Part shown: one piece after another, positions 20,128 to 26,248 of the stretch
How positions within the stretch are numbered: position 1 is the stretch's first letter
Layout: every line of letters begins with the position of its first letter
NCBI RefSeq assembly: GCF_002285795.1
Contig: NZ_CP022961.1
Location: 1,054,001-1,118,000, forward strand
Direction of reading: 5' to 3'
Source of the DNA: Plantactinospora sp. KBS50
Lineage (GTDB): Bacteria > Actinomycetota > Actinomycetes > Mycobacteriales > Micromonosporaceae
Length of the DNA: 64,000 nt
Program-made: the position numbers and the translations under genes
Notes under the pieces: model-generated
Seen by the model: the letters and a program-made list of their open reading frames with translations, nothing else
What the model was told of the DNA's origin: nothing
Database searches by the model: none

Positions 20128-21681
20128 GGATCACCTCCGCATGCGCGGCGAGCACCTGTGCCCATGCCCATGGCGTCGTCCACGCACAGGATCACCCCCG
20201 CATGCGCGGGGAGCACCACCGTCTCACCAGCCTGTAGTACGGCGAGCACGGATCACCCCCGCATGCGCGGGGAGCACAGGACGGTGACGATGGACAACCC
20301 GATCGCCGTGGGATCACCCCCGCATGCGCGGGGAGCACCATGACTCTCTGTTCACTCTTCCAGCTCCTCAAGGATCACCCCCGCATGCGCGGGGAGCACC
20401 GAGCCCATACGCCTCCCCAGGCGGCCATATGCGGATCACCCCCGCATGCGCGGGGAGCACGATGTCGCCGGCCTCGGCGTTGTAGGTCGCGACGGATCAC
20501 CCCCGCATGCGCGGGGAGCATGTGCTGGATATGCCGCGTCCGGCCGTTCGCGCAGGATCACCCCCGCATGCGCGGGGAGCACCCGCTGTGACCAAGGACG
20601 GCAAGACGGTCTTGGGGATCACCCCCGCATGCGCGGGGAGCACCAACGACGGGGGTTCGATGACCCTCACGATCAAGGATCACCCCCGCATGCGCGGGGA
20701 GCACGCGGTGGCCGGCCGCCACCACACACGCGCCGAGGGATCACCCCCGCATGCGCGGGGAGCACACGGCGGTGGGGTTTGTGAACGTGGCGGACAGGGG
20801 ATCACCCCCGCATGCGCGGGGAGCACTCCGTGATGGTCCGCTCGGGGATGCCGCGCGGGGGATCACCCCCGCATGCGCGGGGAGCACTCCGACGATCTGG
20901 CGATCACACGGGGCGCCAAGGGATCACCCCCGCATGCGCGGGGAGCACAGACGTCGTCGGCGGTCACCGTCCGGCCTCGCTGGATCACCCCCGCATGCGC
21001 GGGGAGCACCTGTGTCGTGTCGTCCACCCGCATCGCCTCCCGGGATCACCCCCGCATGCGCGGGGAGCACCCAGTCCCCGTGTGGCCGGTTCAGCACGGC
21101 GCCGGATCACCCCCGCATGCGCGGGGAGCACGTTCGACGCGCAGCGTGGAGGGAATCTCCGCCCGGATCACCCCCGCATGCGCGGGGAGCACGTGCCCGG
21201 ATCCCCCTACAACGACGACATCCCGGGATCACCCCCGCATGCGCGGGGAGCACGCATGGCGCTCGGTCCGGTGAGTCAGCGCCTGCGGATCACCCCCGCA
21301 TGCGCGGGGAGCACCGCCGCGTGCAGCTCCCCCGTGGTCGTCCCGAGGGATCACCCCCGCATGCGCGGGGAGCACATCGTTTCGACCCTGGCAAGGTTGA
21401 GAATGTCAGGATCACCCCCGCATGCGCGGGGAGCACGGCATGTACGCCTGTACGAAATCGGTGCGGAACGGATCACCCCCGCATGCGCGGGGAGCACGTC
21501 CGCCTTCCGCTGCGCAGCAGTGGTTTTGCCCGGATCACCCCCGCATGCGCGGGGAGCACCTGGGCATCTCGAATGGGCAGGTGTCCACCCTGGGATCACC
21601 CCCGCATGTGCGGGGAGCGCGCCGGCGGGTAGGCACCCGGCACGGGCGTGTCCGGATCACCCCCGCATGCGCGGGGAGCAC
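20128..21681 (-). CRISPR. Type I-E CRISPR array, 26 repeats and 25 spacers
   Basis: Twenty-six 28-nt repeats at a 61-nt period. On the plus strand they read GGATCACCCCCGCATGCGCG then GGGAGCAC. The complementary form starts GTGCTCCCCGC and ends GGGTGATCC, the usual orientation of actinobacterial type I-E repeats, so crRNA should be transcribed from the minus strand. Spacers are 33 nt except the one at 21498-21531 (34 nt); all 25 differ. The leftmost repeat (20128-20155) has two substitutions, as expected for the trailer end. The repeat at 21593-21620 also has two. No cas1, cas2, cas3 or Cascade gene is present within the window on either side, so the array depends on cas genes elsewhere or is an orphan. 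Confidence 0.97.
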
Positions 21682-22331: not shown

Positions 22332-22496
22332 GGGGCACCGTCCTCTCGCTGAAGAAGGAAGCACGACGGCCGAGATTCGGGCCGATGGCCGCTGTACTGC
22401 CTTTCATGCTGGACGCACCCGGCCCGGCCTCGGAAGATGGACGTGAGCACCGCCGGCCTATGCGCAACCGCCGCACGGACAGCGGAGGACATAAAC

Positions 22497-23288
22497 ATGA
22501 GTGAACATCAGGGCCTGCCGGCCCGCCTGCGGGAGTTGCGCGCGGCTCGGCGGATGGCACAGGATCGCCTTGCCGAGGCGATCGGCGTATCGAAATCCCT
22601 GGTCTCGCAGTTCGAGTCTGGAAAGGCGATACCGCAGGCCGGCACTGCGCAGCGCCTTGACGAGCTGTTCGGGACGGGCACCGAGATCCAGGAGCAGGCC
22701 CGCACGGCCCACGAGGACCTGCGTCCGTGGATGCGCCCGTGGCACGAGCACGAGCGGCGCGCGTACCTGCTTCGTATCTGGGAGCCGATGTTGATCCCCG
22801 GACTGCTGCAATGCGAGCCCTACATGTGGGCCGTCTTCTCGGCGGTGCCGCGCAACGCCGGCCGGATCGACACCCTGATGGCCGCCCGTCGCGAGCGGCA
22901 GGCGAACACCATCAACCGGGAGCATCCCACCCCCGTTCCTGTCTCCACCATCATCGGCGAGATCGCCCTGCGCCGTGGCCCGAGGGACGTTCTGAAGGCC
23001 CAGCTCGGGCACCTGGCCGACGTCACCCACCAGCGGCACGTCAAGGTCCGTGTGGTGCCGATCGACGGCGAGGGGATCCACGTCGGTCTCTCCGGCCCGT
23101 TCCACATAGCCACGCTGCCGGACGGTCGCCGGTTCGGTCAGATGGATGACCAGTTGATCGGTCACCCGGTGACCGGCGCTGGCGACCTGGGACACTTGGA
23201 ACTAGCGTGGGAAGAGATCGACGCCCTCGCGCTGCCCGTGATCCAGTCCAGGGACCTTATCTTGAGGATTCTCGATGAGTACAAGTGA
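22497..23288 (+). CDS. XRE family regulator with DUF5753 domain
   Basis: A 263-residue protein. An N-terminal helix-turn-helix (about 8-60: LRELRAARRMAQDRLAEAIGVSKSLVSQFESGK) is followed by DUF5753 (about 75-260) with the typical MLIPGLLQCEPYMWAVF, REREQ-like RRERQ, and the final ALPVIQSRDLILRI segment. Such proteins form pairs with DUF397 proteins and regulate development or antibiotic production in Streptomyces. The start is ATG 22497, with GGAGG about 9 nt upstream. The stop lies inside the DUF397 gene that follows. Confidence 0.92.
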   Translation: MSEHQGLPARLRELRAARRMAQDRLAEAIGVSKSLVSQFESGKAIPQAGTAQRLDELFGTGTEIQEQARTAHEDLRPWMRPWHEHERRAYLLRIWEPMLIPGLLQCEPYMWAVFSAVPRNAGRIDTLMAARRERQANTINREHPTPVPVSTIIGEIALRRGPRDVLKAQLGHLADVTHQRHVKVRVVPIDGEGIHVGLSGPFHIATLPDGRRFGQMDDQLIGHPVTGAGDLGHLELAWEEIDALALPVIQSRDLILRILDEYK

Positions 23289-23469
23289 GCCACGTTGGCG
23301 CACCTCCAGCCGCAGCAACGGCACCGGCGCCTGCGTCGAGGTGGCGGACAACCTGCCCGGTCGGGTGCTGGTGCGGGACAGCAAGGACAGGTCCGGCCCG
23401 GTGCTGGCCTTCGCCCCGGCCGCCTGGTCGGCGTTCGTCGCCGGTACGCCCCGCCGGAGCCGCCGGTAA
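23275..23469 (+). CDS. DUF397 domain-containing protein
   Basis: A 64-residue protein with the complete DUF397 pattern: WRTSSRSNGTGACVEVAD, then VLVRDSKDRSGPVLAFAPAAWSAFVAG. It overlaps the end of the XRE-DUF5753 gene by 14 nt, as usual for these pairs. DUF397 proteins are thought to bind or antagonise the partner regulator. The last ten residues (TPRRSRR) fall in a CGCCGGTA tandem repeat that continues past the stop, so the C-terminus may have been altered by repeat expansion. Confidence 0.92.
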   Translation: MSTSEPRWRTSSRSNGTGACVEVADNLPGRVLVRDSKDRSGPVLAFAPAAWSAFVAGTPRRSRR

Positions 23470-23564: not shown

Positions 23565-23634
23565 GGACCGCCCGACCGGAATCCGAGCCCGACCGGCGTG
23601 GTAGCGGACCGGTCGGGCTCGGCAAATCGGTTCG

Positions 23635-23721
23635 TCAGGCGCCGGTACGGGCCACGCCGACCGGGCAGGACATCCCGTTCGGGCCGTGGTTGCAGTATCC
23701 GTCCGGGTTCTTCGATCCTGA
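23635..23721 (-). pseudogene. Decayed second copy of the msrA 3' end
   Basis: Minus-strand translation from 23721 gives [20 protein letters not shown] followed by VGVARTGA and a TGA at 23637-23635. This aligns without gaps to the last 27 residues of the intact MsrA at 24491 ([18 protein letters not shown] then VGVAKTA). Upstream of it the frame breaks; QQKHY in another frame recalls the HQQY of MsrA. It has the GC content of native DNA, whereas the 3' end of the intact gene is AT-richer. It looks like the original msrA end, displaced about 850 bp by an insertion, or a remnant of a paralogue. Confidence 0.75.
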
Positions 23722-23746
23722 CGAACGGTGTAGTGCTTCTGCTGGT

Positions 23747-24340
23747 TCACTCGGTGAATGTCGGGTCCGTGAAGCCCATCTGGCGCATCTTCGAGGGCGT
23801 GAACACGACCACGATCTCGTCCCCCGGAATGAACACCCTTTCCGGTTCCGGGAACTGGGGCATGCCGGCGACGAACCACACCGAGCCGCCAGCGAAGTCC
23901 AAGCGCAGAGCGGTCGGGACGTCTACGTCATGCGGTCGGCCGATCACCTGACCGTCCGACCGCAAGGCGGGTCCGACGGTGAACCGTTCCCACGACACCC
24001 GCGCATCGCGCACCGGCTGCCCCAGCACCGCTGTCCAGCGCGAATCGGTACTCGGCCCGACCCGTTGCGACCCTTCCCGGTCGACGTGGCGGTCAATCGG
24101 TTGCGGGAAGACCTCGACGCCGTACGGATAGAAGGTCGCGGTCCAAGTCACCGTTACCGGACCCGCATCGGTTGTCAACTGCACGCCCATTACGGCGTGG
24201 TGCCAGTCGCCGAAGTCCCACTCGGCGTCCGTCCCCATGCCGCTCAGATCCCAATATCCGACGGAGAGCACGCGGCGGCCCCGCACCGAGCCGACCCGAC
24301 GGTCGAAGTCGGCGCGTACCTCGGAATTTTGGTTGGTCAC
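23747..24340 (-). CDS. Hypothetical protein between the two msrA ends
   Basis: A 197-residue soluble protein of no recognised family. It looks beta-rich, with many aromatic residues: VGYWDLSGMGTDAEWDFGDWHHAVMGV, then WTATFYPYGVEVFPQP, and a C-terminal FPEPERVFIPGDEIVVVFT. I start it at GTG 24340 (VTNQNSEVRADFD); GTG 24379 would add 13 residues. No clear Shine-Dalgarno is visible. It fills the DNA between the intact msrA end and the displaced one, so it is probably cargo of an insertion. Confidence 0.6.
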   Translation of the reverse strand: MTNQNSEVRADFDRRVGSVRGRRVLSVGYWDLSGMGTDAEWDFGDWHHAVMGVQLTTDAGPVTVTWTATFYPYGVEVFPQPIDRHVDREGSQRVGPSTDSRWTAVLGQPVRDARVSWERFTVGPALRSDGQVIGRPHDVDVPTALRLDFAGGSVWFVAGMPQFPEPERVFIPGDEIVVVFTPSKMRQMGFTDPTFTE

Positions 24341-24443
24341 GGCTGCAGGGTCTCTCGGCAGCGCCAGGCGCGACAACACTGTTTAGGCCGGCGGGCGTAC
24401 ACAGGATTGCCGTCTAACTGTCCTGGGAACCGGCTCCGACTCT

Positions 24444-24473
24444 AGGGCCGCCGGTTTGATATCCGGCGGCCCT
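24444..24473 (-). terminator. Hairpin terminator of msrA
   Basis: AGGGCCGCCGG (24444-24454) and CCGGCGGCCCT (24463-24473) are perfect 11-bp arms around the loop TTTGATAT, 17 nt after the msrA stop. There is no long T-tract. Confidence 0.8.
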
Positions 24474-24490
24474 GAGGCGGTGAGAAAGGA

Positions 24491-25150
24491 TCAGGCGGTC
24501 TTGGCGACACCAACCGGACAAGTCATGCCATTGGGTCCATGGTTACAATAACCGCCCGGATTTTTCGACGGGGCCAGGTACTGCTGGTGGTAGTCCTCGG
24601 CGTAGTAGTACGCGCCGAGCCGGGCGATCTCCGTGGTGATCTCGCCGTGCCCGGCCTTCGCCACCACCGGGGCGAACGCGTCCCGGGACTGCTCGGCGAG
24701 GGCGAGCTGCTCGTCGTCGGTGACGTAGATCGCCGAACGGTACTGGGTGCCCACGTCGTTGCCCTGCCGCATGCCCTGCGTCGGGTCGTGGTTCTCCCAG
24801 AAGACCTTCAACAGGTCCTGGTAGTCGATGATCGAGGGGTCGTACACCACCTCGACGACCTCGGTGTGCCCGGTGAAGCCCGAGCAGACCTCCTCGTAGC
24901 TGGGGTTCGGGGTCTGGCCGCCGGCGTATCCCACCGAGGTGGACAGGACGCCGGGCAGCGACCAGAACAGCCGCTCGGCCCCCCAGAAGCAGCCCATGCC
25001 GAACACCGCGGTCCGGGTGCCCTCCGGCCAGGGGCCCTGCAGGGGGCCACCGAGCACGGCGTGGCGATCGCTCACCGGCATCGCCGTCTGCCGGCCGGGA
25101 AGAATCTGGTCCGGTGAGGGCATCTGGGGCGTCATGCGCCGAAGAAACAC
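24491..25150 (-). CDS. msrA: Peptide-methionine (S)-S-oxide reductase
   Basis: A 219-residue MsrA that reduces methionine S-sulfoxide in proteins. The catalytic cysteine is Cys54 in [11 protein letters not shown]. The conserved [39 protein letters not shown] and DYHQQYL blocks are all present, and the resolving cysteines lie in the C-terminal [15 protein letters not shown]. The start is GTG 25150, with AAAGGAG 6 nt upstream. The last 75 bp (24491-24565) are richer in A and T than the rest of the gene, and a GC-rich homologous end lies at 23635, suggesting that the 3' end was replaced by incoming DNA. Confidence 0.95.
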
Positions 25151-25456: not shown

Positions 25457-26248
25457 ATGGCCCATCCACCGATGCTGGAACTCTTCGCCGGTGAATTGTG
25501 CCGGGCGCGGACGGCGGCCGGGTTGTCCCGGGCGGAACTCGGTGAGCTGGTCGGCTGCCCGGAGGTGCTGCTGGCGAAGATCGAACAGGCGATCCGGGTG
25601 CCCGGGGCGGAGTTCGCCCAGCGCTGCGACAAGGTGCTGGCCACCGACGGGCTGCTCACCCGGATCCGCACCGGGCTGGGCCGCGAGGTGCTGCCGCCCT
25701 GGCTGCGGGACTGGTCGGACATCGAGCGGGAGGCGGTGGCGCTGCGCTCGTACCAACCGCTCGTCGTCCCGGGCCTGCTTCAGACCGAGGGGTACGCGCG
25801 GGCGCTGCTGGCCGCGGGCGCGCTCCGCGGCGACGAACTGGAGCAGCAACTCGCCGGCCGGCTGGAGCGGCAGGTCGTGCTCGACCGGGAGCCTCCGCCG
25901 CGGCTGGACGCGGTGCTCGACGAGTCCGTCCTGCACCGGCTGGTGGGCGGGCGCGGCGTGCTGCGGGAGCAACTGCTCCGGGTGCTGGCGCTGGGCCGGC
26001 GTCGGTCGGTGCACCTGCACGTGGTGCCGGCGGGCGCCGGGGCGTACCCGGGGCTGCACGGCGCCTTCGTGCTGGCGACCGCGGCCGACGGGACCGACAT
26101 GGGGTATCTGGACGGCCAGTTGGCCGGCCGGGTGGTGGAGCGTCCGTCGGACGTGGCGGCGCTCCGGCAGACCTGGGAGGAGGTCCGGGCCGAGGCGCTG
26201 CCGCACCGGCAGAGCGTCGAGTTGATCGAGCGGCTGACCCGCGGCTGA
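25457..26248 (+). CDS. XRE family regulator with DUF5753 domain
   Basis: A 263-residue paralogue of the 22497 protein. The HTH lies at about 7-55 ([33 protein letters not shown]), and DUF5753 follows, with [62 protein letters not shown] and [13 protein letters not shown]. The start is ATG 25457, with GGGAGGAGG upstream. Unlike the first copy it has no DUF397 partner adjacent. The target is unknown; the 25336-25350 palindrome is a candidate site for autoregulation. Confidence 0.9.

Follow-up and report, generated by a model that had tools for sequence, protein, structure and literature searches.

The window analysed here, a stretch of 64,000 nucleotides, belongs to a single-contig genome of 6.69 Mb, assigned to the family Micromonosporaceae from its named relatives. 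The features found at the msrA locus are given below; the assignment of element-derived parts and attachment sites is predicted from the comparisons described further on.

24491-25150, minus strand: msrA, peptide methionine sulfoxide reductase (Pfam PMSR, E 2.4e-63, and comparison with relatives); last 25 codons apparently derived from the element
24491-24565, minus strand: restoring msrA tail, apparently brought by the element and lying inside attL; AT-rich (GC3 0.45), mean identity of 0.68 to 14 native Micromonospora tails
24558-24565, minus strand: putative attL core AAAAATCC, from comparison of attL with attR across loci; strand exchange would take place within AARAAYCC
24444-24473, no strand assigned: hairpin behind the restored msrA, a perfect inverted repeat and probable terminator carried by the cassette
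23747-24340, minus strand: orphan cargo gene of 197 aa without family match, on the same strand as msrA; 87% homologues directly behind msrA in genomes G102 and G233
23714-23737, minus strand: putative element arm of attR AGCACTACACCGTTCGTCAGGATC, 24 nt, the top window site for two arm profiles
23705-23712, minus strand: putative attR core AAGAACCC, from the attL/attR comparison across loci
23635-23712, minus strand: displaced tail with stop (TGA), assigned as the original msrA tail from tail identity, genome search, native-likeness and composition
23583-23622, no strand assigned: hairpin behind the displaced tail, a 14-bp inverted repeat (MFE of -44.9 for the 75 nt after the stop) and probable original msrA terminator

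Read along the msrA strand, the order is gene body, AT-rich tail starting at Lys-Asn-Pro, stop, hairpin, orphan gene, arm, second tail and hairpin. A preliminary description of this DNA had reported a gap-free homologue of the last 27 msrA codons some 850 bp downstream. The second 3' end is real, lies on the same strand, possesses its own TGA and is located 853 bp away, as measured between the AARAAYCC cores of the two tails (24558-24565 and 23705-23712); the gap-free stretch spans 22 codons rather than 27, because the displaced copy has one extra codon (GVARTGA versus GVAKTA). The similarity sets in abruptly at TCGAARAAYCCGG. Over the first 22 codons, 46 of 66 nucleotides are identical and the mismatches are distributed 2/2/16 by codon position. 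Third positions account for 16 of the 20 differences, a pattern indicating that both copies evolved as coding sequence. When the displaced 26-aa peptide was compared to the window genome (E <= 0.001), it matched two places, its own locus and the end of msrA (E 1.4e-11). The similarity of the tails is not due to chance. Their difference in composition, as previously described, was also confirmed: the intact tail is AT-richer (GC 0.52, GC3 0.45), whereas the displaced one (GC 0.68, GC3 0.91) resembles the msrA body (0.70). A strong hairpin is present 3' of each stop, intact and displaced, and the 75 nt following intact stops display a mean MFE of -35.2, versus -27.1 for random stretches.

The tails of 14 named single-copy Micromonospora loci were employed as native reference. 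Mean identity to these tails is 0.90 for the displaced tail of the window and 0.68 for the intact one, the gene body reaching 0.83. The displaced tail is the nearer to native tails in 15 of the 16 tested loci, window included. The exception is L149, where it is less native-like than the intact tail, and near ties were observed in L139 and L140; no displaced tail was obtained from four further listed loci. The 16 loci are not fully independent, since some of them share a cassette. Judging from this comparison, the displaced tail is native in character and constitutes the original msrA end.

The same 26-aa peptide was used to search 354 Micromonosporaceae genomes, a sample containing one genome per species. 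A match was found in 341 of them and two or more msrA ends in 54, a lower bound given that G102 and G233 carry the cassette of the window without a recognised second tail. The sample contains no second genome from the genus of the window, and the comparison of occupied sites (at least two tails) with empty ones (a single tail, as in most other genomes) is therefore made at the family level. By our reading of the resulting table, 52 of the 54 genomes have every extra end downstream of msrA, in the same orientation and on the contig of that gene. In G296 (L165, C70:146200-149200), a tail with stop has no msrA within 3 kb, the msrA of this genome residing on another contig; G001 (L163) possesses one conforming copy and one on the opposite strand. 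A script-based scan of 54 loci (53 regions with msrA, plus the window) delimited 52 intervals in 43 loci. Twelve intervals measure 5 kb or more and 40 are smaller (444-3852 bp, median 712), the 853-bp interval of the window being one of the latter. The remaining 11 loci were left out of the segment counts because the tail pattern missed their second copy, as were L168 and L169, and genes were called with a simple script of our own, not with a trained gene finder. Up to four cassettes are found in tandem, G026 having four intervals. In an order-level sample of 397 genomes, four genomes from a further family (f13) proved to contain three or four tails apiece. The loci L181-L184 (G387, G378, G395 and G048), taken from this family, hold tail arrays in which several intervals contain, by reading, toxin-antitoxin-like genes.

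A tandem duplication of msrA, with subsequent decay of the second copy, would equally leave a downstream gene end in the same orientation. Full tandem msrA genes, which the preliminary description had named as the arrangement speaking against an insertion, were not encountered: the catalytic GCFWG motif does not occur a second time on the msrA strand in any of the 56 oriented loci, and the second copies are accordingly gene ends, not full genes. Duplication was rejected on this ground. It also accords poorly with a similarity whose sharp onset lies at the same codons across many genomes and with a second tail that is native-like when the intact one is not, and is considered extremely improbable.

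The region beyond the displaced tail contains a CRISPR array (20128-21681; at least 24 units with a 61-bp spacing and a 28-nt repeat, GGATCACCCCCGCATGCGCGGGGAGCAC) and, next to the tail, a regulator pair made up of an XRE-DUF5753 gene and a DUF397 gene behind it (22437-23469). A second XRE-DUF5753 gene is located upstream of msrA (25457-26248). The adjacency of the array and regulator pair to the displaced tail would suit another reading mentioned in the preliminary description, in which the CRISPR/XRE side (about 20.1-23.5 kb) would have been inserted as the island, next to a native orphan gene. Just two msrA ends were nevertheless found in the genome, which bracket the 853-bp stretch, and no third one; the native-like tail and its hairpin are placed on the CRISPR side of the arm, and the orphan gene adjoins msrA in three genera. 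This island was rejected on the number of msrA ends and the position of the orphan gene, and we give it hardly any credence.

A stretch of about 25 nt, AGTACTRCACCGTTCGCCAGGRTCS, precedes the displaced tail and is common to 22 intervals with unlike interiors, window included. Per 5-nt bin, the mean information content of the arm is 0.68-1.17 bit over these last 25 nt, against 0.11-0.35 bit further out. A 24-nt profile derived from 22 other arms, with the window excluded, gave the window arm the highest score found on either strand of the window (28.5 bits, with 15.9 for the runner-up). A profile built from six integrase-bearing elements placed it first again (21.8 bits, next 17.9); positions given by the arm profile are subject to a 1-nt register shift. 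Among the 40 small segments, 22 agree with the arm at no fewer than 18 of its 24 positions; another 13, by our own count, display B-type ends, in which the second copy begins at His-Gln-Gln-Tyr, and five show neither. The arms of the integrase elements L113, L114 and L117 agree with the cassette consensus at 15, 13 and 12 of 24 positions, respectively, which counts against an insertion. The same MazEF-like cassette core was seen with B-type ends in L129, L130 and L153 and with A-type ends in L132, L147 and L154 (L130 c1 versus L132 c1: 87% over 603 bp), as if cassettes could change attachment type.

The preliminary description had suggested looking for a recombinase linked to msrA elsewhere. 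Such enzymes were indeed found: of the 12 intervals of at least 5 kb that separate two msrA ends, 10 encode a large serine recombinase with a Resolvase domain. Seven belong to a phiC31/TG1-like family A (545-584 aa as called, with a Tyr-Val-Arg-Gln-Ser-Ser motif) and three to a family B (493-502 aa as called), the two families sharing about 26-39% identity over partial alignments; L118 and the first interval of L125 contain neither. In L121 (G086), a serine recombinase of yet another type, sharing 28.5% identity with B, is encoded in the interval from msrA to a weakly matching second tail at a distance of 13.5 kb. With integrase A of G002 as query against the family, all seven matches of 64-100% identity start at most 35 bp from the displaced msrA end. 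A weaker relative (59%, partial) is found in G127 within an element behind msrA, another one (56%, one stop) in G112 has no msrA in the 18 kb around it, which argues against the insertion, and the remaining matches are 39-44% identical. All three family matches of integrase B at 1e-100 reside inside msrA-bounded elements. In the window genome itself, neither integrase A (at E 1e-60) nor integrase B (at E 1e-100) found a match, a further point against the insertion.

Integrase A shares 31-35% identity over 98% of its length with the integrases of the phiC31 and TG1 group, from which it differs by its target gene and by being found in elements about 10 kb long. PHROG 95 (integrase) is matched by A as well as by B. 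No relative of integrase A above 35% identity was present among 50,697 phage records. An IMG/VR scan returned 13 pattern stretches, none of which was confirmed, and plasmids gave a single distant match (24.5%). The window-type tail produced only Sinorhizobium matches at E 0.3 among plasmids. These scans thus disclosed no free circle or joined attP. A record containing an msrA tail and labeled "Bacteriophage sp." in GenBank (MT836143.1, L167) was rejected as a phage, its msrA frame being of normal length and surrounded by cellular-looking frames; it looks like a piece of bacterial chromosome and is probably a cellular contig.

Homologues of the orphan protein were detected in 21 of the 354 family genomes, window included. 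The closest ones (87%) occur in G102 and G233, from two other genera, and are both located directly behind msrA; in ten further loci that were read (52-57% identity, nine of full or near full length and one partial), none adjoins msrA. The orphan protein gave nothing above the curated cutoff of Pfam and nothing at E 0.1 in NCBIfam or PADLOC. Its best PHROG match has an E value of 0.057, and the fold predicted from the single sequence (mean pLDDT 43) was too poor for a structure search. Compared to G233 (L169), the window displays 83.4% identity in the msrA body, 94.7% in the restored tail and 89.9% in the cassette, the rise taking place at the predicted crossover; the arm is kept in L169, one mismatch from the fuzzy consensus. 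Compared to G102 (L168), the values are 80.7% for the body, 73.3% for the tail and 85.5% for the cassette. This low tail identity counts against an insertion, and so does the failure to find either arm or displaced tail in G102, the third carrier of the orphan gene. Between G009 and G026, a cassette is 95.1% identical over 568 bp where msrA reaches 76.0%, and in several within-genus pairs the identity of the cassette is equal to or below that of msrA. Cassettes common to genera with differing msrA bodies could also result from homologous recombination in the flanks, either ordinary recombination or gene conversion, by which a foreign msrA end and the orphan gene would have been brought in without any site-specific enzyme. 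Such a process makes no second native tail, no common 24-nt arm and no serine recombinases beside this arm, and it is regarded as quite improbable.

The stretch at about 23713-24565 (853 bp) is very probably a small cassette without an integrase of its own, which a large serine integrase of family A, provided from another source, inserted at a specific site in the 3' end of msrA. The insertion, its boundaries and the restoration of msrA emerge from the comparison with relatives. This comparison lends support to the earlier proposal of an element integrated in the 3' end of msrA, carrying a restoring copy, with the 23747-24340 gene and the terminator as cargo. We infer that the cassette is mobile; integrase A would be the acting enzyme, working in trans, and the restored MsrA is presumably active. 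The attachment site in msrA would be situated at the codons for Lys-Asn-Pro. Recombination within AARAAYCC would join the host msrA body to the tail, stop and terminator of the cassette, by which msrA would have stayed whole, and the original tail would come to lie further downstream, past the second arm of the site. A single gene would form the cargo.

The cargo of the other small intervals, assigned by clustering and then by Pfam searches on representatives, mostly consists of a single compact gene or operon. Toxin-antitoxin families (Phd/ParE, AbiEii-type, PemK/MazF or Fic/Doc) are represented in 24 of the 40 small segments and a YCII-domain gene is present in five, while others contain a MazG-like or carbonic-anhydrase-like gene. 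The same site-specific insertion is shared by an explanation that differs only in the origin of the small cassette, which would be the remnant of an element of about 10 kb at msrA, having lost its integrase and most genes and kept both arms (CIME). CIMEs of such kind are described in the accessible part of PMC5704250. Decay does occur at msrA, as shown by the truncated B-type integrase beside an msrA tail in L181 and by the partial A-type integrase of the G127 element. The 40 small segments were nevertheless devoid of any trace, at E 1e-3, of five test integrases (A or B), and type A ends are conserved over no more than 25 nt, even though the integrase gene begins at most 35 bp away; the compact cargo likewise speaks against remnants. 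An origin by decay is possible but rather doubtful. On the strength of these sequence comparisons, namely the limit of conservation at 25 nt and the missing integrase traces, we favour small cassettes that would be independent satellites over decayed elements.

Several parts of this arrangement have known counterparts. The accessible text on the ssrA islands of Dehalococcoides (PMC3146451) describes islands arrayed in tandem downstream of a single-copy gene and delimited in each case by a copy of its 3' end, with a serine recombinase near one edge in some and 15 islands lacking the module in the same arrays. The msrA system resembles these islands (DsiB) in its tandem arrays, gene 3'-end copies, edge serine recombinase in some members and integrase-free members. 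In Dehalococcoides, according to the same text, an RNA gene with a 20-bp repeat serves as the site and the enzymes are DsiA/DsiB, the islands being of kilobase size with reductive dehalogenase genes; the msrA site, unlike these, is protein-coding, a whole diverged coding tail is brought in and the cassettes often measure less than 1 kb. SCC/SCCmec and the Enterococcus cassette chromosome at rlmH, in the portion of PMC6222049 available, likewise combine large serine recombinases, a site in the 3' end of a housekeeping gene and variable cargo, attL being in the gene and attR downstream. SCC employs a CcrA/CcrB pair at rlmH (PMC6222049, in part), whereas the msrA system would rely on a single integrase, at msrA, in actinobacteria. 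With the NCBIfam CcrA model, integrase A scores 29 bits (cutoff 700) and integrase B gives no match at E 0.1; with this score and a site in msrA, the cassette was rejected as a member of SCC.

As for CIMEs, the window interval consists of both ends and one gene, with no integrase, which corresponds to their structure of retained attL and attR and no integrase or transfer genes. The part of PMC5704250 available describes CIMEs as lacking integration genes, keeping attL and attR and occurring in tandem, and defines them by decay from ICEs or IMEs, an origin that the very small msrA cassettes may or may not share. According to the same part, the target gene is disrupted by those serine-recombinase IMEs that have been studied to date; restoring a protein-coding gene by means of a brought-in coding tail therefore represents a difference from them. 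As far as the accessible portions of these sources go, islands with serine recombinases are already known to occupy gene 3' ends, to form tandem arrays and to include members without an integrase, and the msrA system probably works like SCC or the Dehalococcoides ssrA islands. A literature search, in which few subscription papers were covered, retrieved no paper linking msrA or methionine sulfoxide reductase with a serine integrase.

Integrons are arrays of small cassettes, rich in toxin-antitoxin genes and added at one anchor site by a tyrosine integrase acting on folded single-stranded attC sites. The msrA arrays likewise hold small cassettes rich in toxin-antitoxin genes at one anchor, and differ from integrons by their serine integrases and gene-tail copies. 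It may tentatively be proposed, with more doubt than confidence, that Micromonosporaceae and at least one related family possess a serine-integrase counterpart of the integron, in which the msrA dock collects integrase-free cassettes, of one gene or of toxin-antitoxin type, moved in trans, their arms being matched to one of two unrelated integrases. A conserved protein-coding gene would in this manner serve as cassette dock for two serine integrases unrelated to each other, and its dozens of natural attachment-site pairs could be used for integrase tools in actinomycetes. The dock may also offer a route for the spread of toxin-antitoxin genes between genera, and variation of the MsrA C-terminus would be explained by swap and not by mutation alone. 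If the integron-like reading were true, each arrival would swap the end of the enzyme and push older cassettes outward, and the distance from msrA would reflect the order of arrival.
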